A stretch of DNA of 14,230 nucleotides from Candidatus Aenigmatarchaeota archaeon (GTDB taxonomy: Archaea > Aenigmatarchaeota > Aenigmatarchaeia > GW2011-AR5 > WALA01): NCBI GenBank assembly GCA_015523085.1, contig WALA01000064.1:1-14230 (forward strand). Direction: 5' to 3'. Position numbers and translations under genes: made by a program. This document shows, piece after piece, positions 83 to 10,170 of the stretch. Within the stretch, counting starts at the first letter, position 1; each line of letters opens with the position of its first letter. Under the pieces are notes generated by a model. It saw only the letters and a program-made list of their open reading frames with translations. It had not been told where the DNA came from and did no database searches.

Positions 83-742
83 ATGATGCAGGAACTTTCA
101 AATTACTTCAAGGCATACATGCCAAGCGTCGTTCCAAAAGACGCCAATTCGGACCGCGTTTCGCAGACATTAGACGTTATGTCGGACTTCGCAAAATACT
201 ACGGAATTCCAGAGACGTACGGAAAGGTTCCCGTTAAGGAAACGCCACTCGACGGAGCTCTCGGCGTGACAAAAATATCTCCTGTCGACGACAGAACGTA
301 CAAGGTGGAAATAAATCTCGACCCGAAGATATTTAGTCCGTACGCAAAAACATTCGGCGTTGACGAAATGGTCATATACCACGAATTCACGCACGTTCTA
401 TCCGTTCCTCTCACAAAATACTTTTTGGGTCTCGACGAAAAGGAGCAAACAACAATAATGGAAATGCTCGCAACATACGGTCTCAGCAAATACCTATCGG
501 ACAAAGGGCATGTGGAGAAGGCAATCAATGTGGCCGAGAGAAACCCGTACAAAGCGGCGTGGGACTTCGGACAATTGATCGATAAATATTATGGAAAAGA
601 GGAGCAAAGCAAAGAATCGGGACTCAAGAAGTTCATAAAAGATATGCAAAAATACGGAGCTCGGAAAGTTCTCGACGAACTTTACAGAATTGTCCCGGAA
701 ACGCGTGAGCTCACACAATCTCGAGAAGTTTCTTTTTCCTAA
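83..742 (+). CDS. Putative HExxH zinc metalloprotease (gluzincin-like)
   Basis: This 219-aa protein has HEFTH at residues 100-104, the zinc-binding and catalytic HExxH signature. A glutamate at 127 (in MEMLATYG) sits where gluzincins place the third zinc ligand, just after the motif helix. There is no signal peptide or membrane helix, so a cytoplasmic enzyme is expected. Residues 1-95 do not resemble a family I can name, and the C-terminal third is charged and helical. The start is one of two adjacent ATGs (83 or 86) next to a leaderless-type promoter. Its 3' end overlaps the convergent gene by 32 nt. Peptidase activity is inferred from the motif alone. It could instead be an archaeal minigluzincin relative with extra domains, or a catalytically altered member. 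Substrate is unknown. Confidence 0.7.
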   Translation: MMQELSNYFKAYMPSVVPKDANSDRVSQTLDVMSDFAKYYGIPETYGKVPVKETPLDGALGVTKISPVDDRTYKVEINLDPKIFSPYAKTFGVDEMVIYHEFTHVLSVPLTKYFLGLDEKEQTTIMEMLATYGLSKYLSDKGHVEKAINVAERNPYKAAWDFGQLIDKYYGKEEQSKESGLKKFIKDMQKYGARKVLDELYRIVPETRELTQSREVSFS

Positions 743-1268
743 GATTTATTTTCTTCTTCCTTTCAGAGAGGATATTCAAATACTTTTCAATCAGATGCCA
801 CCGCCAGAATATTCCGGCGTATTTTTTGAGGTCTTTCTCGCACGAATTTATTATTTTCATCTGCATCTTCAAATCGTTGTTGTACTTTTCACTCAGCATG
901 GGAACGCGCTGTATATCGTCATCGGAGCTCACCCCAAACGTATCACCGTGCTCGCTTATCTCCATGTAGTACTTCTTCCTCTTGTTAAAATAAATCAAAG
1001 AGTACATCTCGCCGAGCTTCACCAAGTATGATGTCGTGTAAGGAATGATTCGCTTCATCATTACCAACGGCCGCTTTTGATTCTTCACGAAAAGCCCATA
1101 GTAATTTTTCGTCTTCCCAGTGACGTCGAATTTCATCATTCTCCAAAACGGCCTTTCATTGAGACGATCACGCACTTCGTTTTCAAGCCTAAGTGGATTC
1201 AGAAGAAATATGAAAAAGTCCCTTGGAGAGCGTATACCCTTGAATGTCTTCCACGTGTAGTAACTCAT
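711..1268 (-). CDS. Hypothetical basic protein, last gene of the metal-cofactor operon
   Basis: This 185-aa protein matches no family I recognise. It is rich in Lys, Arg, Tyr and Phe. It has no clear transmembrane helix, only one cysteine (in INSCEKD), and a strongly basic C-terminus with Lys-rich runs. A central part (about residues 60-115) alternates hydrophobic and charged residues and looks like beta-strands. It starts 10 nt after the stop of the second MinD-like gene on the same strand, so it is probably co-transcribed. The ribosome-binding site is weak (AAGG about 14 nt upstream). Its last 10 codons overlap the end of the convergent HExxH gene. The operon position suggests an accessory role with the ATPases, but that is inference only. 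Confidence 0.7.
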   Translation of the reverse strand: MSYYTWKTFKGIRSPRDFFIFLLNPLRLENEVRDRLNERPFWRMMKFDVTGKTKNYYGLFVKNQKRPLVMMKRIIPYTTSYLVKLGEMYSLIYFNKRKKYYMEISEHGDTFGVSSDDDIQRVPMLSEKYNNDLKMQMKIINSCEKDLKKYAGIFWRWHLIEKYLNILSERKKKINLRKKKLLEIV

Positions 1269-1278
1269 AATTATATTT

Positions 1279-2142
1279 TCATCGCCTTAATTTAAAGATA
1301 TCATCGATTTTCTCAAAAATTCTTAACGCGTCCAATGAAGCAATGGCACTCGGGGAAACTTCGACGAGCGGTTTCATCTTTGAAATGGAAAACGGAACGG
1401 AATCGTCAAAATGGATTTTACCCAAAACGCGCCCTGAAAACACGCTCTCCAATTTTTTCGAGAACGATTCATCAAGGTCAAATTTGTTGATAATTATATA
1501 ATATTCTATGCCAAAGTGGTTCACAATTTTCAGCATTCTTTTCATGTCCGAGAGCGACTGTGGCGTTGGTTCAACCACACCCACGAACACATCTGAACCG
1601 GATATTGCTGAAATTGTCGTGCATTCTATTCCGGCGGGAACGTCAATCACGACCATATCCTCATTTTCCTCGTGCAAGATTTTCTCGACGATTTTTTTCT
1701 CCTCGTCAACAAGCATTCCCGAGCCCGAACGACCAAGTTCGAGAGCTGCGCTCACAACGTATCCGTACCTCGTCTTCCCCCAAAGAATGTCGCCCGTCTT
1801 TCTCGTCACGATGTTTATTGCGTTGACCGGACAAACGTAAGCGCATGCTCCGCACCCCTCACACAAGAATTTGTCGATCTTCGGGGGTCGCGCCGCACCA
1901 AAGTTGCACACTTCAACGCATCTCATGCACCGAATGCACGAATCATTTATCACGGCCGTTTTGGATATGCTCACGCTTTTACGGTTACGAAGTTCGACTC
2001 CGAGCGCGAGGGCTAGATTTGGAGCATCGACATCCGCATCCATGGAAACTAACTTGTACTTTTTCGAGAAATGCGATATCATGGACGACGCGAAGAACGT
2101 CTTTCCCACTCCGCCCTTTCCACTCCCGACCGAAATTCTCAT
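1279..2142 (-). CDS. MinD/Mrp-family ATPase with 2[4Fe-4S] ferredoxin insert (copy B)
   Basis: This 287-aa protein belongs to the SIMIBI deviant-Walker P-loop group. It has GKGGVGKT at residues 8-15, the DADVDAPN switch at 35-42 and VIDVPAG at about 165-171. Inserted in the ATPase is a two-cluster ferredoxin domain: C69, C72, C75, C79 and C94, C97, C100, C104, both in CxxCxxCxxxC spacing, enough for two [4Fe-4S] clusters. Such MinD-ferredoxin proteins usually occur as adjacent pairs, often with NifX/NifB-like small proteins, and are thought to load or move metal clusters by ATP hydrolysis. The precise reaction is not established. It overlaps the first copy by ATGA, giving translational coupling. 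The proteins probably form a heterodimer, since the two copies are clearly diverged. Confidence 0.93.
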   Translation of the reverse strand: MRISVGSGKGGVGKTFFASSMISHFSKKYKLVSMDADVDAPNLALALGVELRNRKSVSISKTAVINDSCIRCMRCVEVCNFGAARPPKIDKFLCEGCGACAYVCPVNAINIVTRKTGDILWGKTRYGYVVSAALELGRSGSGMLVDEEKKIVEKILHEENEDMVVIDVPAGIECTTISAISGSDVFVGVVEPTPQSLSDMKRMLKIVNHFGIEYYIIINKFDLDESFSKKLESVFSGRVLGKIHFDDSVPFSISKMKPLVEVSPSAIASLDALRIFEKIDDIFKLRR

Positions 2143-2981
2143 GAGCTCTCACCGCGTATGAAATTTGCGATCCTTTTTATTTCGGAATATGCGTCAACGT
2201 TTTCGTCCAAAAGTTTTTGGCTGATGTAATATTTAACGAGCTCCCTGTCGAACTTTATTCTTGAAATTATCTTCACGCCACGCTCGTTGCAAAGCCGTTC
2301 GATTTTTGAATTGTCTCCAATGTCGCTTCTGTTTATGACCACAAACGTTCTTTTGTTAAGTTGGGAAGTTATGTCAAGTATCAATTTCAAGTCGTGAGCT
2401 CCGAAAGGTGTCGGCTCTGTAACCGCAACAATAATGTCGGCGTCTTCGAGCACCGATACCACGGACGAGCCCGTTCCCGCGGATGTGTCGTAAATGTAAA
2501 AATCGTAGTCACCGCGAGCCAAACTTTTTGCCTTGTTTATTGCATGCAAGGATTCCTTCTCGCCCTCAACTATGGACGCGGTGAGTAAATTCAATCCACG
2601 TAGTTTCGAGAAATAGACGTACCCGACAACTTTTTTGCCGTTATCTATGGCATTTCTGGGGCAGACGATTTTGCACGTCCCGCACCCGTTGCACATGTTC
2701 GGGAAGACCTTTATTTTTCCATTGAGCTTGATGAGCGCGTTCTCAGGGCACGCATCGACGCATTTCTCGCACAAATCGCACCTGTCGTTGATTATTGGAA
2801 CAAAGAGTTCAACGGGTGTTCCGTTCCTGAGCTCCGCACCGAAGAAAATGTGATCGTTCGGACATCCTGCGTCCGCGTCTATGAGAACGGCCTTTCCGAA
2901 TTTGGAGAGAACGTTGGCTACATTGACCGCGATTGTCGATTTTCCCGTGCCACCCTTTCCGCCAGTAAACGCGACTTTCAT
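2139..2981 (-). CDS. MinD/Mrp-family ATPase with 2[4Fe-4S] ferredoxin insert (copy A)
   Basis: This 280-aa protein is built like its downstream neighbour: deviant Walker A GKGGTGKST at residues 8-16, switch DADAGCPN at 35-42, and DTSAGTG at 165-171. The ferredoxin insert has C68, C71, C74, C78 and C97, C100, C103, C107 as predicted ligands of two [4Fe-4S] clusters. Both the upstream junction (with the cation transporter) and the downstream one (with copy B) are 4-nt ATGA overlaps, so the three proteins are probably made in fixed ratio. A cytoplasmic role in Fe-S or metal-cofactor transfer is inferred from the family and from the NifX-like partners. Nothing in the window indicates nitrogen fixation. 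Relatives include the Mrp/ApbC/Nbp35 carriers and the paired MinD-ferredoxin proteins. Confidence 0.93.
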   Translation of the reverse strand: MKVAFTGGKGGTGKSTIAVNVANVLSKFGKAVLIDADAGCPNDHIFFGAELRNGTPVELFVPIINDRCDLCEKCVDACPENALIKLNGKIKVFPNMCNGCGTCKIVCPRNAIDNGKKVVGYVYFSKLRGLNLLTASIVEGEKESLHAINKAKSLARGDYDFYIYDTSAGTGSSVVSVLEDADIIVAVTEPTPFGAHDLKLILDITSQLNKRTFVVINRSDIGDNSKIERLCNERGVKIISRIKFDRELVKYYISQKLLDENVDAYSEIKRIANFIRGESS

Positions 2982-4198
2982 TCAACTTCCCTCGTCTCGT
3001 GTTCGAGCTTCTCCAATTTTCCCTCGATGAAATCCTTCACGACATCTGCAACAACGTCCGAGTTCGCTCTGTATATGTCAACAAAGTTGTCCCGAAGAAC
3101 GTGGAGCGATATCTCGCCTATGTTTTTTGTGACTACAACATCGGAATTTTGCGACAAGAACTTACCTATGGAAAGTCCGACCTTCACCTTTTTGTCCACA
3201 TAAGGGTTTGGAATCACCTTCATGCGCTCAACGCTCTTCTCCTTGACGAAGAACAGAGCAAAGTGCGGAGCTCTGGAAAGGTTTTTCGCAACTTTCTCGC
3301 CAGACTCGTCACTCACGGGGATTGCGACAACGTACTCGCTTTCCTTCTCGGGCTCGACGTGTATGCTGAGCTCATTGACTTGGGGAAACGCCTTCTTTAT
3401 CCTGCGCTCGATATCCTCAGATATTTCATTGGCTCGTTCAACGTTTATGCTTCCCTTGACGAGAATTGTCATGTCACCGAAAACGACCATTCCCGACTTC
3501 CTGAGTTTTATGGACTTTATGTTTTTCACGTAGTTTGTGGACATGACAAGTTCTTTTATTTTCTTCTCCATCTTTGGCTCTGGTGAAGCATCCATGAGTA
3601 TGAGCACGGATTCATAGAGTCCTTTGAGACCGTACTTCACGAGCAGAAACGATATGAATATTCCGACGGCGCCTTCAACGTACATCACTCCGAAATGTGA
3701 AGCGACAACACCGGCGAGAACCGCAAGCGATGTGATTATGTCCATTCTCGACTCATAGCCGTTCAACAAGAGGGCCGATGAGTTAATTTTCTTTCCCACT
3801 TTAATTTCATAAATTGATATGAAATAGGACGCTATCGCGGAAATCGCCGCCACGGACATCGCAGCGTAGTCGTAGCTTATTTCAACGCTTTTTAGCGAAT
3901 GCACGGAATCAAAGAACATGAACACGCCAGCAGCGACTATGAAAATCGACACGACAAACGTGGCAAAAGTTTCCGCCTTGTAATACCCGTATGGAAATTT
4001 TTCATCCGGCCTCTTCTCGGAGATTTTAAGCCCGATGAACGTGGCAAAAATTATGAAAATGTCCGATGTGGAATGCAACGCATCGGCTATCAGAGCCACA
4101 CTGCCGCTCAAAACTCCCACAATGCCTTTCAAAATAGCAAGAACCACCGTGGCAGCAGTGCAGTTCAAGGCAACTTTCTTTCCGCTGCTCACATCCAT
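2978..4198 (-). CDS. Cation diffusion facilitator (CDF) transporter fused to a C-terminal NifX-like domain
   Basis: This 406-aa protein has three parts. Residues 10-205 are a CDF membrane domain of about six helices. Residues 210-285 are the cytoplasmic metallochaperone-like CDF domain (ending in LSIHVEPE). Residues 290-400 resemble the dinitrogenase FeMo-cofactor (NifX/NifB) domain. CDF proteins export divalent cations by proton antiport. The helix 2 metal motif is intact (H42xxxD46 in ADALHSTSD). In helix 5 the usual histidine of HxxxD is a glutamate (E149xxxD153 in NGYESRMD), so metal preference may differ from ordinary zinc carriers. The third domain aligns by eye with the free NifX-like neighbour: VAIP starts, RAPxF, NP, VVVTKNIG against AVITREIG, and a LE-EH end. 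The start overlaps the NifX gene by 10 nt and the stop overlaps MinD copy A by ATGA. The transported ion is not known. Confidence 0.92.
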   Translation of the reverse strand: MDVSSGKKVALNCTAATVVLAILKGIVGVLSGSVALIADALHSTSDIFIIFATFIGLKISEKRPDEKFPYGYYKAETFATFVVSIFIVAAGVFMFFDSVHSLKSVEISYDYAAMSVAAISAIASYFISIYEIKVGKKINSSALLLNGYESRMDIITSLAVLAGVVASHFGVMYVEGAVGIFISFLLVKYGLKGLYESVLILMDASPEPKMEKKIKELVMSTNYVKNIKSIKLRKSGMVVFGDMTILVKGSINVERANEISEDIERRIKKAFPQVNELSIHVEPEKESEYVVAIPVSDESGEKVAKNLSRAPHFALFFVKEKSVERMKVIPNPYVDKKVKVGLSIGKFLSQNSDVVVTKNIGEISLHVLRDNFVDIYRANSDVVADVVKDFIEGKLEKLEHETREVE

Positions 4199-4590
4199 CT
4201 TCCACGACCTCCTCTGCCGAATCCGCGACCAAATCCACGTCCAAAAGCACGCGTATGCTCTTTGAATTCTTCCAATTCGCCACGCTTCAAGCGCTCAACA
4301 ACATCTCTGACTTTTCCGTCACCGGAAAATACTTTCACGCCTGCCTCGCGAAGTATCTCGTAAGAGTTCGGACCTATTTCTCGCGTTATAACGGCACTCG
4401 CGCCAGAGTTGAGAATTGCACGCGCCGACGCCACGCCGGCGGCATGTTGCGCAAGAGAACCGGGATTTCTCTTCGCAACAACGGACATTGAATCCAAGTC
4501 AACTATAGTGAAAAACGGAGCTCGGCCAAATATATTGGACACTTCCTCTTCAAGGCCGCGCTCACCGTTGGTAGGAATTGCAACTTTCAT
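4189..4590 (-). CDS. NifX/NifB-like dinitrogenase cofactor-domain protein with Gly/Arg tail
   Basis: This 133-aa protein has a NifX/NifB-type cofactor-binding fold at about residues 1-110 (MKVAIPTNGERG start, FGRAPFF, AVITREIGPNS). The tail at 114-132 is made of GRGF repeats ending in RWM. Members of this family carry or bind metal-sulfur cofactors. Many archaea and anaerobic bacteria encode them without nitrogenase, and their substrate there is unsettled. The domain has no cysteine. I chose the ATG at 4590, not 4596, because GGGAGG at 4604-4599 is 8 nt from the former and only 2 nt from the latter. That start overlaps the preceding stop as ATGA. It probably works with the fused transporter domain and the MinD pair. 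Confidence 0.9.
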   Translation of the reverse strand: MKVAIPTNGERGLEEEVSNIFGRAPFFTIVDLDSMSVVAKRNPGSLAQHAAGVASARAILNSGASAVITREIGPNSYEILREAGVKVFSGDGKVRDVVERLKRGELEEFKEHTRAFGRGFGRGFGRGGRGRWM

Positions 4591-4754
4591 TCCCATCGCC
4601 TCCCACGACCGAAACCGCGTCCGCGACCGCGCCCACCATCGACTCTATAAATGGCTGTCGAACCACATTTAGGGCATTTCGCAGGGCGTCCCGTTCCGTA
4701 GGGCTCTTCCCATTCGTATCCACATGAGCCGCACTTGAATTTCCTTCCTTCCAT
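4587..4754 (-). CDS. Small zinc-ribbon protein with Arg/Gly-rich tail (55 aa)
   Basis: This short gene has two CxxC knuckles (C8/C11 and C27/C30) around GYEWEEPYGTG, so it should bind one zinc. The rest is a tail at 40-55 of alternating Gly and Arg. The ribbon is closely similar to the C-terminus of the DUF134 protein encoded just upstream (CGYEWKEPFGTG, CPKCGS), so the two probably arose by duplication. It starts 4 nt after the DUF134 stop, behind a GAGGTGA ribosome-binding site, and its stop overlaps the NifX start. It may bind nucleic acid or pair with the NifX-like protein, which carries a similar Gly/Arg tail. No activity is known. Confidence 0.87.
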   Translation of the reverse strand: MEGRKFKCGSCGYEWEEPYGTGRPAKCPKCGSTAIYRVDGGRGRGRGFGRGRRWE

Positions 4755-4758
4755 AACA

Positions 4759-5160
4759 TCACCTCAACCTTACAACATCTTTGGAGCCGCACTTCGGGCA
4801 TTTGACAGCACCCGTTCCAAACGGCTCCTTCCACTCATAACCGCAATTTCTGCAATGCATAACCCTGTACTTGACCTCAAATGCTCCGCCACTTATTTCA
4901 AGCGCCTTGCCATTGAACACGGCGTCCACGACTTTCTTACGCGCATTCGTGAGCTCCGTCCACAGCGTCTTTCTCGATATGTTCATTATCTTCGCCGCTT
5001 CCTCCTGGCCGTGTCCGTCAAGATCAACGAGTTTCATCGCCATGAGCTCATCTGGCGTAATACTAACCGTTTCTATGTCGAGCAACCGGACTCCGCGCGG
5101 CTTGAAATAGTCGGTCTTCGGGAGCTCGTACAATCGACGAAGCTTTCTGGGTCTCGACAT
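4759..5160 (-). CDS. DUF134/UPF0251 helix-turn-helix protein with C-terminal zinc ribbon
   Basis: This 133-aa protein begins with the family signature (MSRPRKLRRL, then YFKPRGV). A sigma-like helix-turn-helix follows at about residues 36-82 (TPDELMAMKLVDLDG, then QEEAAKIMNISRKTLW). Residues 100-130 add a zinc ribbon with C103, C106, C121 and C124. UPF0251 proteins are presumed DNA-binding regulators and commonly precede NifX-like and MinD-ferredoxin genes. As first gene of the operon, directly behind a TATA box, it is the likely local regulator and may be autoregulatory. The zinc ribbon could be a metal-sensing or protein-contact element. Its near copy in the next gene supports a shared partner. 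The start ATG at 5160 has a leader of about 10 nt. Confidence 0.92.
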   Translation of the reverse strand: MSRPRKLRRLYELPKTDYFKPRGVRLLDIETVSITPDELMAMKLVDLDGHGQEEAAKIMNISRKTLWTELTNARKKVVDAVFNGKALEISGGAFEVKYRVMHCRNCGYEWKEPFGTGAVKCPKCGSKDVVRLR

Positions 5161-5190: not shown

Positions 5191-5201
5191 GTATTTAAGC
5201 T
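5191..5201 (-). promoter_or_regulatory. TATA box of the DUF134-NifX-CDF-MinD operon
   Basis: On the minus strand the sequence AGCTTAAATAC lies about 35 nt before the DUF134 ATG at 5160. Transcription would start near 5170, giving a leader of about 10 nt. The box overlaps the stop codon of the preceding membrane regulator gene (5200-5202), so the operon can have its own promoter despite a 39-nt gap. Confidence 0.5.
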
Positions 5202-5670
5202 ATTGTAGAAGCAGTTTTTCCATATCATCCGAGAGTTTCACGATGTACGTCTTCCCGTAGCGCTCACGCTTCACGAGTCCGCGGAGCTCAAGCCTCTTTA
5301 TCGTTCGGAACGTCTTGACCTTGTCGAACTTCGTTTCGCGCATTATCTTCGACTGGGTCGTCGGCCCGCGGACGAGTATTCTGACGACCGCACGCTCGCC
5401 TGGCGGAAGGAGTATAAGAATTTTATCCAAATTCTCCTCTACGAAGTCCTTCTTTGTCTCCACATTGATGAATATTAGATAGTACACAAGAACTCCTATA
5501 AAGAGCCCGAGCGAAGAGAGAAATGGAACGAACAAGTACAGCGGTATGGCACATCCACAGACGTTCCCCGTCTCAACGTGGTATTGAACGTAAAGTGAAC
5601 TCCCCGCGACAATAAGTATGAAAACGGTTATGATAAGCATCGCAAGTATTATTTTCTTCGAATGCTTCAT
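5200..5670 (-). CDS. Membrane-anchored winged helix-turn-helix regulator
   Basis: This 156-aa protein has two N-terminal transmembrane helices (about residues 6-28 and 42-69). They are joined by a short loop holding C38 and C40 (a CGC pair), which would face outside. A cytoplasmic linker leads to a winged helix at about 85-152: ERAVVRILV, then TTQSKIM, a recognition-helix region and a wing (LVKRERYGKTYIVKL). Two-helix membrane wHTH proteins are common in archaea and are thought to link envelope signals to transcription; few have known targets. It is transcribed divergently from the PLD-like gene across 55 nt, so that gene is a plausible target. The ATG at 5670 lies about 21 nt from the TATA box, consistent with a leaderless message. 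The loop cysteines could form a redox switch. Confidence 0.87.
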   Translation of the reverse strand: MKHSKKIILAMLIITVFILIVAGSSLYVQYHVETGNVCGCAIPLYLFVPFLSSLGLFIGVLVYYLIFINVETKKDFVEENLDKILILLPPGERAVVRILVRGPTTQSKIMRETKFDKVKTFRTIKRLELRGLVKRERYGKTYIVKLSDDMEKLLLQ

Positions 5671-7605: not shown

Positions 7606-7962
7606 TCAGAAAACTATTTCAACATCAACGTCCTTCACCCCAGGTATCTGGGAAACGCGGTACTTGACGTCGGCTACTATCATGTCCATCAACGGGCATC
7701 CTTGTATCGTCAGCGTCATCTTTATGAAAATGTGATAGCCATCGTCTTTTTTCTCGATTTTTATTCCGCGTAAAAGGTCCATCGATATTATGTCCTGTCC
7801 AACTTCCGGGTCAACAACCTCCTTCAACTTCTCTATCACGTCGCTTTCTGAAATCGGAGACTGAGAAGCTTCCTTTATCTTCTCATCTTCTTTCCTTTTC
7901 TGCACTATCTCCTCAACCTTTTCCTTGTTTCCGTTGCGCGCATTGTATATCAAGTCGTCCAT
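7606..7962 (-). CDS. MIP18/DUF59-family protein, SufT-like Fe-S assembly factor
   Basis: This 118-aa protein has a MIP18/DUF59 domain at about 38-118: VVDPEVGQDIISMDLL at 49-64 and the conserved cysteine C89 in LTIQGCPLMDMI. SufT-like proteins of this family help mature Fe-S proteins, and the place directly behind SufB supports that role. Residues 1-36 form a charged, probably helical extension not needed by the core fold. I chose the ATG at 7962, whose A is shared with the SufB stop (TGATG). A TTG at 7965 is also in frame, but GGAGGG at 7974-7969 is 6 nt from the ATG and only 3 nt from the TTG. It is the last gene of the suf operon. Confidence 0.88.
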   Translation of the reverse strand: MDDLIYNARNGNKEKVEEIVQKRKEDEKIKEASQSPISESDVIEKLKEVVDPEVGQDIISMDLLRGIKIEKKDDGYHIFIKMTLTIQGCPLMDMIVADVKYRVSQIPGVKDVDVEIVF

Positions 7963-9155
7963 CAAAATCCCTCCATCGTTTTGTCAATGAGCTCCTTGAC
8001 CGACTTCTTTAGGTACGGCGTGAGCTCCATTTCGTCGACATCAAGGAATCCGCGGACCATGAGAGCGACAGCGTCGTCTTCCGAGATTCCGCGCGACATC
8101 AGGTAATTGAGCTGCTCCTCGTCTATCTTGCCTATGGACGCCTCGTGCGTGAGCTCGGCATCCTTGTTGGACGATTCGAGAACGGGTATCGTCTTCATTT
8201 TCGCATTATCGGAAGCCATGAGCGCCCGACATTCAATGTGGCCTTTCGTCTTCGGCGCATTTGAAATTATTTCCGAGCGCGTTATGTTGTTGGACTCATC
8301 GGCCACAACGTTGTGCGAAATTATCTCTCCGCGACTTCCGGCACCATTGAGAATTATCCTCCCCCCAAGGTCGAGCATCGACTTCGCGCGCCCGTAAACT
8401 ATGCTCCGCAAAGTTGCGGATGAGTTCGCACCGTCACATCGCACGGTAGGAAACGTTTGAATGTCCTTTATCGGATAAAGCGTGACATAATTTGAGACGA
8501 ATTTCGCATCATCCGCTAAGACGACGCCTGTTCGCGGTCTCACGTAGCTTTCGGACGACCAATTGTGTATCATGTTGTAAATGAACTTCGATCCTTTCTC
8601 AAGGTATATTTCTGTCACCCCTATGTGAAGCGTGCGCTTGGCCTTGTACTGGGCTGTGCATCCGTTTATTATCTGGGCGCTTGCTCCCTCCTCAATTATT
8701 ATAATATTGTGCACATTTTGAATGGAGTTGTTCGTCGATATCAAGAAGCACGCCTGAATTGGTATTTCGACGTTCTCCCCCGCAAACACGCGCAGGAAGT
8801 ACCCACCCGGATTATTGAGCTCGGAAAACGCCGTAAATTTGTCCTTCATTTCAACGGCGTTGAAATAGTACCTGTCAATGTTGTACTTCTTCATTGCCTC
8901 CTGAAGTGGCATTCTTTCGAGCTTCCCGTTGAAAACCTTGTTTATGTTCTTGTAAAGTGACGCTTCGTTGTTTTGAATGAACGTCGCCGAGCGGTTGTTC
9001 TCGCTAAGGTCGATGCCCACCTTTTTCATGTCGTCTTCGGCGCCCGCAGGAAGGTCGTTCGTCCCTGACGGCATCTCGAACGTTGAGAAGTCTATGTCAT
9101 TCCCTATTGGATTCACGCTCAACAGACTTTCAAGGTATTTTCTGTCAAACTTCAT
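7962..9155 (-). CDS. sufB: SufB/SufD-family Fe-S cluster scaffold
   Basis: This 397-aa protein carries the SufB/SufD beta-helix core in its C-terminal two thirds. Diagnostic parts are GHIECRALMAS (305-315, with C309 at the SufB cysteine position), IPVLESSNKDAELTHEASIG (323-342) and EEQLNYLMSRGISEDDA (346-362). With SufC it should form the SufBC scaffold where Fe-S clusters are built. It is shorter than E. coli SufB (about 495 aa) and no separate SufD is present, as in many archaea, so a SufB homodimer on two SufC subunits is likely. No SufS or SufU gene lies in the window, so the sulfur donor is encoded elsewhere or sulfide is used directly. It is joined to SufC by an ATGA overlap. Confidence 0.95.
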   Translation of the reverse strand: MKFDRKYLESLLSVNPIGNDIDFSTFEMPSGTNDLPAGAEDDMKKVGIDLSENNRSATFIQNNEASLYKNINKVFNGKLERMPLQEAMKKYNIDRYYFNAVEMKDKFTAFSELNNPGGYFLRVFAGENVEIPIQACFLISTNNSIQNVHNIIIIEEGASAQIINGCTAQYKAKRTLHIGVTEIYLEKGSKFIYNMIHNWSSESYVRPRTGVVLADDAKFVSNYVTLYPIKDIQTFPTVRCDGANSSATLRSIVYGRAKSMLDLGGRIILNGAGSRGEIISHNVVADESNNITRSEIISNAPKTKGHIECRALMASDNAKMKTIPVLESSNKDAELTHEASIGKIDEEQLNYLMSRGISEDDAVALMVRGFLDVDEMELTPYLKKSVKELIDKTMEGF

Positions 9156-9814
9156 TGGTCATCACCATTAAAATTTATGTTGTTCAAAATATCCACTCCA
9201 CCACGGCGGATTATGCGCCCGTTCCCTATCACAACAATTTCATCAGGGCTGATTGATTTCACAACGCCTATGTTGTGCGTCACGACCATGACCGTGGCGT
9301 TCATCTTGCGGAGCTCATTTATGGCGTTAAGTATGTATTTTATGGAATCGATATCGACGCCCGAATCAGGCTCATCGAGAAGCGCAAGCTTCGGCCTCAT
9401 TGAGAGGACTTGAAGGAGCTCGCTTCGCTTCGTCTCGCCGCCGGAAAGCCCGCTGTTCAAGTCGCGCTCGAAAAAGCTGTCCGGAACGCCGACAACATCC
9501 GAAAACATCGGATTCCTCACGACATCGATAAGTTTCACGCCGTTCACAACTGGTGGTCTTTGGAATGCCATTGCAATTCCCATCTTCGCGCGCTCGTAGA
9601 CGCCGAGGTTCGTTATATCGGTGTCATTAAACAAAATTTTTCCCGATTCAATTTTGTACTTCGGAATTCCCATTATGCTCATGAGAAGCGATGTCTTCCC
9701 ACCACCGTTCTTCCCAAGAATGACATAAACCTTTCCATCTTCGGCTGTGAAATTAACGCCGTTTATTATCTTCCTTCCATTGACAGATACGTGTAGGTCT
9801 TCAATTTTTAGCAT
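9152..9814 (-). CDS. sufC: SufC, Fe-S assembly ABC-type ATPase
   Basis: This 220-aa protein is a soluble ABC ATPase. It has Walker A GKNGGGKT (34-41), the Q-loop Q85, the signature LSGGE (123-127), Walker B LALLDEPD (143-150) with E148, and an H-loop VTHN. The stretch after the signature (ELLQVLSMRPK, then DSGVDIDSI) is typical of SufC and not of transport ATPases. It drives conformational change in the SufB scaffold during cluster assembly. Walker B reads DEPDSGVD where many SufCs have DETDSGLD, a minor change. The start lies inside the end of the regulator gene (14-nt overlap), behind AAGGTGA, and the stop overlaps SufB. Confidence 0.95.
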   Translation of the reverse strand: MLKIEDLHVSVNGRKIINGVNFTAEDGKVYVILGKNGGGKTSLLMSIMGIPKYKIESGKILFNDTDITNLGVYERAKMGIAMAFQRPPVVNGVKLIDVVRNPMFSDVVGVPDSFFERDLNSGLSGGETKRSELLQVLSMRPKLALLDEPDSGVDIDSIKYILNAINELRKMNATVMVVTHNIGVVKSISPDEIVVIGNGRIIRRGGVDILNNINFNGDDQ

Positions 9815-10151
9815 TTCTATTCACCTTGCATTTTGAGCAGACGAACTCGCGGAATATCCCCATGAACATCTTGCTGAAATCCTCGCACATTATTTTCGCC
9901 GTTCGATCGCCTTTCTTCGTTATCGAATAAACTATCCGTTTTCCGTCTTTCTTCGATTTCAAAAGGCCGCTCTTTTCGAGTTTCGCAAGCGTCGGATACA
10001 CGGTGCCCTGCGTTATTTTCTTCCCCTTGAGCTCCGAAAGCGTTTTCATGAGCTCGTACCCGTATGACGGGTGTTTGTGAAGAACCCAGAGTATCTGCAT
10101 CTCCAGAAACCCGTGGTTGCGGTCGAACGAAATGTGTCGATTAGTAGACAT
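9801..10151 (-). CDS. PadR-like winged-helix regulator heading the suf operon
   Basis: This 116-aa protein has the PadR winged helix at about residues 15-85: FLEMQILWVL, PSYGYELMKTL, the recognition stretch ITQGTVYPTLAKLEKSGLL, and a wing RIVYSITKKG. The C-terminal part carries C89 and a CSKC pair (C105, C108), which could bind a metal or an Fe-S cluster or respond to oxidation. It is probably the operon's own regulator, but a sensing role is inference. I start it at the ATG at 10151: the TATA box at 10171-10180 predicts a transcription start at about that base (leaderless). A TTG in frame at 10169 lies too near the TATA box. The end overlaps sufC by 14 nt. Confidence 0.87.
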   Translation of the reverse strand: MSTNRHISFDRNHGFLEMQILWVLHKHPSYGYELMKTLSELKGKKITQGTVYPTLAKLEKSGLLKSKKDGKRIVYSITKKGDRTAKIMCEDFSKMFMGIFREFVCSKCKVNRNAKN

Positions 10152-10170
10152 AACTATAAAGAAGCACAAA

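Follow-up and report, generated by a model that had tools for sequence, protein, structure and literature searches.

The operon

The window, the whole stretch of DNA analyzed here, is the 14,230-base contig WALA01000064.1 (C64) of a Candidatus Aenigmatarchaeota archaeon draft genome (431,682 bases in 65 contigs, 80.8% complete). Its minus strand carries an operon in which a predicted divalent-cation exporter of the CDF family continues into a C-terminal NifX domain. This CDF-NifX protein (2978..4198, 406 amino acids (aa)) scores 154 bits for Pfam Cation_efflux, 67 for ZT_dimer and, for the fused NifX domain (about residues 290-395), 33 for Nitro_FeMo-Co (cut-off 26.3). Upstream on the same strand lie a free NifX-domain protein with a basic Gly/aromatic tail (4189..4596, 135 aa, pI 10.1, Nitro_FeMo-Co 71 bits), a free small zinc ribbon with an RG-rich tail that falls below the cut-off of every Pfam model listed (4587..4754, 55 aa), and a DUF134 helix-turn-helix protein with a C-terminal two-CxxC zinc ribbon (4759..5160, 133 aa, Pfam DUF134 87 bits). 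Downstream are two MinD-type ATPases with Pfam CbiA/ParA-type matches, paralogue A with an inserted 2x[4Fe-4S] ferredoxin domain (2139..2981, 280 aa) and paralogue B with an inserted two-cluster ferredoxin domain (1279..2142, 287 aa).

The original prediction had placed seven minus-strand open reading frames (ORFs) here, and the ORF list and Pfam bear out all seven with their domain calls. The overlaps of 4-10 nucleotides (nt) that it described from 4754 to 1279 are also real: they measure 10 nt at 4587/4596 and 4189/4198 and 4 nt at 2978/2981 and 2139/2142, and only the two outer junctions are gaps (4759/4754, 4 nt; 1279/1268, 10 nt). Its gene seven (711..1268, minus strand, 185 aa) is an orphan, which we do not count into the unit: it is co-directional, but has no Pfam or NCBIfam match and no relative in 29 related genomes, so that among 30 genomes it matches only its own; the contig of the genus mate stops short of it. 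The prediction had also left out the upstream neighbor, a winged-helix gene (5200..5670, minus strand, 156 aa, DUF7343/MarR-like by Pfam) that recurs beside MinD-ferredoxin clusters. A TATA-like TTAAATA, spotted by eye, lies about 35 nt upstream of the DUF134 gene.

A second genome of the genus (G084, locus L052) has the same genes up to the edge of its 3,536-base contig. For the five complete shared genes and the shared part of a sixth, dN/dS between the two is about 0.06-0.15, which indicates that the operon genes are real; this includes the 55-aa ribbon gene (dN 0.024, dS 0.40) and the DUF134 gene (dN 0.033, dS 0.228). A chance or broken gene is ruled out by this purifying selection together with the single conserved fusion clade described below. 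From mid-CDF to the fused NifX domain (3946-3047), identity to the genus mate drops to 78-91% in 150-base blocks, compared with 91-99% in the other operon blocks; from its sequence this patch looks replaced or recombined.

The CDF-NifX fusion

We searched 156 Aenigmatarchaeota genomes with PF02579 and read all the fusion frames. The model matched in 48 genomes, 18 of which have the match within a CDF-transporter open frame of 412-462 aa. Named genomes scanned with the C-terminal portion of the fusion gave 139 relatives; the best 80 of these comprised 44 CDF-NifX fusions, 35 CDFs without NifX by profile, and one distant fusion (L099) that was set aside. By the labels of their records, metagenome bins whose labels may err, the 44 fusion loci belong to Aenigmatarchaeota (15), Thermoplasmata/Thermoplasmatota (6), Diapherotrites (3), Bathyarchaeota (2), other archaea (2), and one each of Pacearchaeota, Woesearchaeota, Nanoarchaeota, Micrarchaeota, Thermoprotei, Thaumarchaeota, Lokiarchaeia, Helarchaeota and Methanosarcinales; seven are bacterial (Parcubacteria, Portnoybacteria, one Syntrophorhabdaceae and four others). 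The Methanosarcinales label is probably wrong, as that genome (L074, archaeon AB_1215_Bin_111) falls in the GTDB phylum of a Nanoarchaeota genome. Counting also G000, G019, G145 and four genomes of a second group treated below, whose contigs do not match the named records in length, the fusion occurs in 51 genomes that span DPANN, Thermoplasmata, Bathyarchaeota, Asgard and Parcubacteria-like bacteria.

An alignment (A2) of the window protein with 43 of the 44 fusions, leaving out the partial L059, matches Cation_efflux, ZT_dimer and Nitro_FeMo-Co in all 44 rows. In quick tree searches the 45 fusion CDFs form one group of the CDF tree (SH-aLRT 96) and the 45 fused NifX domains one group of the NifX tree (SH-aLRT 98). 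The proteobacterial L099 protein (8323-9582), also a CDF with C-terminal NifX, sits on a very long branch outside the main clade and is perhaps another fusion event; its genome has two partial MinD-ferredoxin matches.

An AlphaFold2 prediction from the 44 rows (mean pLDDT 82.8, pTM 0.57) has six membrane helices, the CDF cytoplasmic domain and an alpha/beta domain at about 288-391 (pLDDT about 87). Sequence profiles, which tie the fused domain to solved NifX-family structures (E 1e-18), and predicted secondary structure both point to a NifX fold. Its near-invariant residues are R309, N331, G341, G361, I363, D370 and Y376, with H366 in 40 of 45, and its GEISxHxLRD stretch was not seen in the free NifX copies aligned. 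The metal-binding A-site of the fusion CDFs has H/E/N/D and D in transmembrane helix 2 (TM2) in 44 of 45, with one gap, and E/D/H and D/H in TM5 in all 45, Glu in 37 of them. Such an HD-ED site is on record for CDF clade 8 (PMC5703985; this and the other papers cited by PMC number were available in part). After the superfamily model, the best curated CDF models are the magnetosome iron transporters MamB and MamM, at 171 and 164 bits, below the NCBIfam equivalog cut-off of 350.

Neither a CDF-NifX nor a CDF-ribbon fusion is described in the open literature searched, whose coverage is incomplete; within it the CDF-NifX fusion is undescribed, while the kind of cluster is known.

Linkage to the MinD-ferredoxin genes

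Forty-one of the 156 Aenigmatarchaeota genomes have MinD-ferredoxin matches of at least 120 bits: all 18 fusion genomes and 23 of the 138 others. The fusion occurs in none of the 115 genomes lacking MinD-ferredoxin (Fisher p 1e-12, uncorrected for kinship, the 18 being spread across 10 families); the p-values of that analysis used a locus count of 31 that included L078. That locus has since been rejected as a MinD-ferredoxin locus. Its 538-aa match has a GRNGIGKS P-loop and resembles an ABC protein with a ferredoxin domain, which we take to be ABCE1. The second group, the 371 genomes of the phylum of G166 (the genome of Nanoarchaeota locus L079), was searched for MinD-ferredoxin at a threshold of E 1e-15. 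Here the fusion occurs in 6 genomes, one cut at a contig end, and MinD-ferredoxin in 39: 5 of the 6 fusion genomes versus 34 of the 365 others (Fisher p 6e-5).

The association is also one of position. Of the 44 fusion loci, 30 contain a ferredoxin-bearing MinD gene and one more has it cut at a contig end (L084); the 35 loci of unfused CDFs, all retrieved with patterns derived from fused proteins, contain none. When the genomes of the 13 MinD-less fusion loci and of L062 and L084 were searched, 14 of the 15 had a MinD-ferredoxin match of at least 128 bits; loci and genome searches together place MinD-ferredoxin in 43 of the 44 fusion genomes. Paralogues A and B, told apart by profile scores, are both present in 26 of the 44 loci. 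Free NifX accompanies fused NifX in 31, and in 29 a NifX, MinD or DUF134/ribbon gene lies on the same strand within 60 nt. In the Pacearchaeota contig L059 the MinD-A gene (1050-1843) is spread over overlapping frames, by sequencing error or decay.

The original prediction had staked itself on conservation of the neighborhood in relatives and on co-occurrence of the transporter fusion with MinD-ferredoxin. The neighborhood search that it proposed finds both, in most of the 44 fusion loci, through the phylum and in the second group, with CDF-NifX as one clade. Because of these linkage counts and the single groups in both trees, the fusion is probably old, of single origin, and kept together with its partners.

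A second tether

Two Aenigmatarchaeota genomes with MinD-ferredoxin and no CDF-NifX (G125, G126) have in the cluster a CDF ending in an RG-rich linker and a small zinc ribbon of the type found in these loci. Eight CDF frames were picked from the second group, where further CDF frames lie outside this sample; six have the same ribbon (G321, G296, G414, G197, G448, G523), one is a fragment and one lacks it. The resulting eight ribbon-CDFs form a clade apart from CDF-NifX (SH-aLRT 100). They stand beside NifX and DUF134 genes in 7 of 8 locus pieces and beside a MinD-ferredoxin gene in 6, and their genomes contain MinD-ferredoxin genes in 7 of 8 cases (the exception is G523). The CDF-NifX fusion is absent from all eight genomes; ribbon-CDFs were not sought in the fusion genomes.

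In an earlier tree the two ribbon-CDFs then known adjoined the NifX-fused clade (support 80), and on that account a swap of arms on a tethered ancestor appears equally possible as two separate captures. By swap or by capture, predicted CDFs are joined to each of two small soluble domains encoded in such loci. These domain fusions, which suggest a physical link between exporter and cluster, are the strongest part of the finding.

Free NifX proteins

The free NifX of the window follows its globular NifX-type domain with a tail of 27 residues, with net charge +4, 8 Gly and 5 aromatics. This is the architecture of IssA, a protein of thioferrate storage with a NifX-type (IPR003731) domain and a cationic Gly/aromatic tail that was proposed as its thioferrate-binding feature (PMC5524996). 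By a fixed criterion, a basic Gly-rich tail occurs in 41 of 104 free NifX-type ORFs versus 0 of 63 fused ones, rows that count some contigs twice; two fused lineages (L046/L068, L071) have short RG/W-rich ends and fail it. By a motif test, 25 of the 44 fusion loci have a free NifX with an RG-type tail. The free ribbon of the window (4587-4754) ends in the same RG pattern as the neighboring NifX tail.

The best solved relative of the free NifX is MTH1175 (E 3.4e-18), called an IssA-type protein (PMC5524996); it is also homologous to the orange protein ORP (2wfb, E 1.5e-10). ORP forms a complex with two MinD-ferredoxin proteins, its own part being that of the NifX-domain protein (PMC6345978). 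The same set, two MinD-ferredoxin paralogues and a stand-alone NifX, is genetically linked in the window. A linked MrpORP, an Mrp ATPase with a NifX domain, was not found there, and the strong Mrp matches of G000 and G084 are on other contigs. A second type of free NifX terminates in a Cys/His motif and frequently shows HFGRC early in its sequence, similar to motifs reported for MrpORP (PMC6345978). In L058 a NifX of this type follows an Mrp/NBP35-type ATPase with a 4-nt overlap, a split MrpORP.

Two further observations concern NifX genes. Near-identical 114-aa NifX-type genes with HFGRC lie at the ends of contigs C13 and C52 of G000 (L050, 10-354; L051, 3512-3856), as a recent duplicate or an assembly break. 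In at least 5 genomes the NifX domain is doubled within one protein of about 250 aa (L133, L137, L152, L159, L160).

Zinc ribbons and presumed regulators

Fourteen of the 44 fusion loci have small ribbon genes. Where a DUF134 gene is present (20 fusion loci), the ribbon occurs only fused in 6, only free in 4, in both forms in 4 and in neither in 6, so the doubled ribbon of the window is a minority arrangement. The original prediction took each part of the operon to be a pair of one free and one tethered copy. The idea suits NifX, but holds for the ribbon at only 4 of those 20 loci and fails for MinD, where the pair is two diverged paralogues, neither tethered.

The DUF134-ribbon protein is presumed to be a transcription regulator. 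The winged-helix protein (5200-5670) is likely a regulator also; it has by eye two N-terminal hydrophobic stretches and is possibly a membrane-bound metal or redox regulator. Aligned homologues stand beside MinD-ferredoxin/NifX clusters in 15 loci, the window included, and a single-sequence profile finds the protein in only 3 of the 44 CDF-NifX loci; it therefore goes with the cluster more than with the fusion.

A proposed iron-sulfur module with a tethered exporter

Our favored interpretation, at which we arrive tentatively and give a little less than an even chance, is that these genes encode an ORP/IssA-type module for handling iron-sulfur under anaerobic conditions, to which an exporter has been tethered. 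The functions of ORP, MrpORP and IssA would carry over by analogy. The free NifX, through its domain and basic Gly-rich tail, would hold iron sulfide or Fe-S units in the cytoplasm. MinD-ferredoxin A and B, probably as a heteromer, would load or unload these units with ATP, in the way that Orp3/Orp4 act as partners of ORP in Desulfovibrio. The CDF pump would export a divalent metal, most likely Fe2+, and the tail-less fused NifX domain would serve at the membrane as a decoy or sensor, docking to the partners of the free NifX or binding its cargo, and in this way couple export to the filling of the store. The DUF134-ribbon protein, and perhaps the winged-helix protein, would adjust expression.

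We infer that the cargo is most likely iron-sulfur rather than some other cofactor. Pointing this way are the likeness to the ORP complex and the IssA-like tails of the free NifX proteins; the Mrp/NBP35 Fe-S carrier added to the L058 cluster; the SufBD/SufC, ferritin-like and ferredoxin-thioredoxin reductase genes near a few clusters; and the place of MamB/MamM as next-best curated CDF models, though below cut-off. The logic of a tether is favored by a separate CDF clade bearing the locus ribbon in place of NifX. A more specific proposal, which is possible but doubtful, is a new class of cargo-gated metal exporter: two CDF lineages would have taken the NifX or the RG-linked ribbon of an IssA/ORP-type operon as a cytoplasmic docking arm, by which the pump physically senses or drains a mineral-like iron-sulfide store.

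Several observations weigh against the iron-sulfur module. The metal, cluster and interactions of its members are read from sequence, and the A-site residues of the fusion CDFs do not identify iron; A-site and metal are only loosely correlated among CDFs (PMC5703985). The free NifX falls among tailed relatives, in a 113-column tree that resolves no IssA clade and does not include P. furiosus IssA. The locus piece has no ferredoxin-bearing MinD gene in 14 of the 44 fusion cases, including four whose flanks are long (L061, L064, L069, L093), and the search of the L074 draft genome found no MinD-ferredoxin match. The control of 35 unfused CDF loci is narrow, with 24 from Thaumarchaeota, mostly Nitrosopumilus-like, and 3 of 9 control genomes searched have MinD-ferredoxin elsewhere in the genome. 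As 23 of the 41 MinD-ferredoxin genomes of Aenigmatarchaeota lack the CDF-NifX fusion, the exporter would be optional. The ZIP and ABC-3 metal transporter genes close to some fusions fit a role in zinc handling no less well.

Zinc homeostasis is the main and a serious rival, although on balance we think it unlikely. The CDF would export Zn2+, the ribbons would read zinc occupancy, and the NifX/MinD Fe-S machinery would be shielded from zinc mis-metallation. Ribbons recur free, on DUF134 and on CDFs, though they may be structural only; ZIP-type genes are found in 5 loci and genes for ABC-3-type permeases in 2, and Pfam confirmed a single member of either group. The ribbon-CDFs have HxxxD in TM2 (6 of 8) and in TM5 (8 of 8); zinc clades of CDFs have this quartet, and an iron clade has it as well (PMC5703985). 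However, the TM5 His is replaced by Glu or Asp in 44 of 45 NifX-fused CDFs, their fused domain is of an Fe-S family, and the core partners are ferredoxin-bearing ATPases.

A Mo or Mo-Cu cluster as cargo, as in the Desulfovibrio orange protein, is improbable. The homology of the free NifX to ORP noted above speaks for it, yet MTH1175 is the closer solved relative. Nitrogenase (PF00148), absent as the original prediction had said, and molybdopterin oxidoreductase had no match in the two genomes of the genus, which are 81% and 94% complete; a Mo-Cu cluster could, however, act outside these enzymes. With the nickel marker considered below, we reject links to nitrogenase, molybdopterin and F430, as their marker genes were not found.

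We give slightly less credence still to a role in MinD-like positioning or division, with membrane CDF-NifX recruiting the MinD-ferredoxin ATPases to the membrane. The ATPases belong to the MinD superfamily, and a putative part in cell division has been ascribed to the ORP proteins of D. vulgaris (PMC6345978). Such a role would leave the ferredoxin inserts and the metal transporters unexplained, and the named recurrent neighbor groups include no division genes, at which no search was aimed.

A 2025 network paper on ANME-2a (PMC12622379) assigns genes of these kinds to nickel and F430 delivery. Here, a CDF for nickel with a NifX that carries F430 to methyl-coenzyme M reductase is very improbable: McrA (PF02249), detected in two methanogen controls, is absent from all 156 Aenigmatarchaeota genomes, which excludes the idea for this lineage provided that those genomes represent it; the fusion also occurs in records labeled bacteria.

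Comparison with known systems

The ORP/MrpORP system likewise has two related proteins with two [4Fe-4S] ferredoxin motifs each and a stand-alone NifX-domain protein, and Fe-S transfer was shown in vitro for the ORP complex and MrpORP; the available text mentions no CDF (PMC6345978). The split MrpORP of L058, an Mrp/NBP35 ATPase beside a Cys/His-type NifX, is a further likeness. Window-type clusters differ in adding DUF134, the ribbon, and an exporter of the CDF family that is joined to either NifX or the ribbon. Sigma-54 control, another point of difference, is not expected in archaea.

The IssA of Pyrococcus furiosus shares domain and tail type with the free NifX of the window, whose tail has 27 residues versus 70; no exporter is mentioned for IssA in the available text (PMC5524996). 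FieF/YiiP and MamB/MamM share Cation_efflux, ZT_dimer and six membrane helices (for the window, in the model), but the window CDF has the extra C-terminal NifX, scores far below the MamB/MamM cut-offs, and belongs to fusions whose TM5 site is mostly ExxxD. FmpB of Desulfovibrio magneticus has a tethered NifX/NifB domain in an iron-mineral system that also uses the CDF MamB (PMC4287615); there the tether is to a magnetochrome domain, not a transporter. In ANME-2a, genes for a CDF, two 4Fe-4S proteins, a NifX-family protein and a P-loop NTPase have closely numbered loci (C5S33_05750 to 05780), but they are read as nickel/F430 delivery and the available text reports no fusion (PMC12622379).

The cluster bears on how strict anaerobes store iron and sulfur and dispose of the excess. 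IssA is the sole characterized thioferrate store in the literature surveyed, parts of which were available, and no exporter is tied to it there. The fusions suggest that metal export and iron-sulfur storage are linked, in a way not described before, in microbes that live without oxygen. An exporter covalently fused to a storage or carrier domain, with two different arms, makes the question testable on single proteins, and offers a specific role that can be tried for DUF134 and for the paired MinD-ferredoxin genes. The fusion also suggests that archaea and bacteria with very small genomes retain iron-sulfur management among the things not given up. A cargo-gated exporter, if true, would be an anaerobic counterpart of the ferritin-plus-exporter circuit across DPANN, Thermoplasmata, Asgard and Parcubacteria-like genomes.

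Neighboring genes

FeoB was considered as a matching importer and rejected: FeoB_N matches reached only 26-40 bits, in frames of 270, 282 and 409 aa, none a clear FeoB.

Neighbors over 45 loci, the window included, were grouped by BLAST, and each group takes its name from a single member that was scanned. The most frequent are DUF5320-type Gly/Arg-rich proteins (17 loci), methyltransferases (10) and DsbD-like membrane proteins (9, the scanned member being below the Pfam cut-off), followed by metallo-beta-lactamase folds (7), radical SAM proteins (6), SufB/D (4), ferredoxin-thioredoxin reductase (3) and ferritin-like proteins (2). Elsewhere in the window, the minus strand at 7606-9814 encodes a SufC-type ABC ATPase, a SufB/D-type protein and a FeS_assembly_P protein, and 9801-10169 presumably encodes a PadR-like small regulator.

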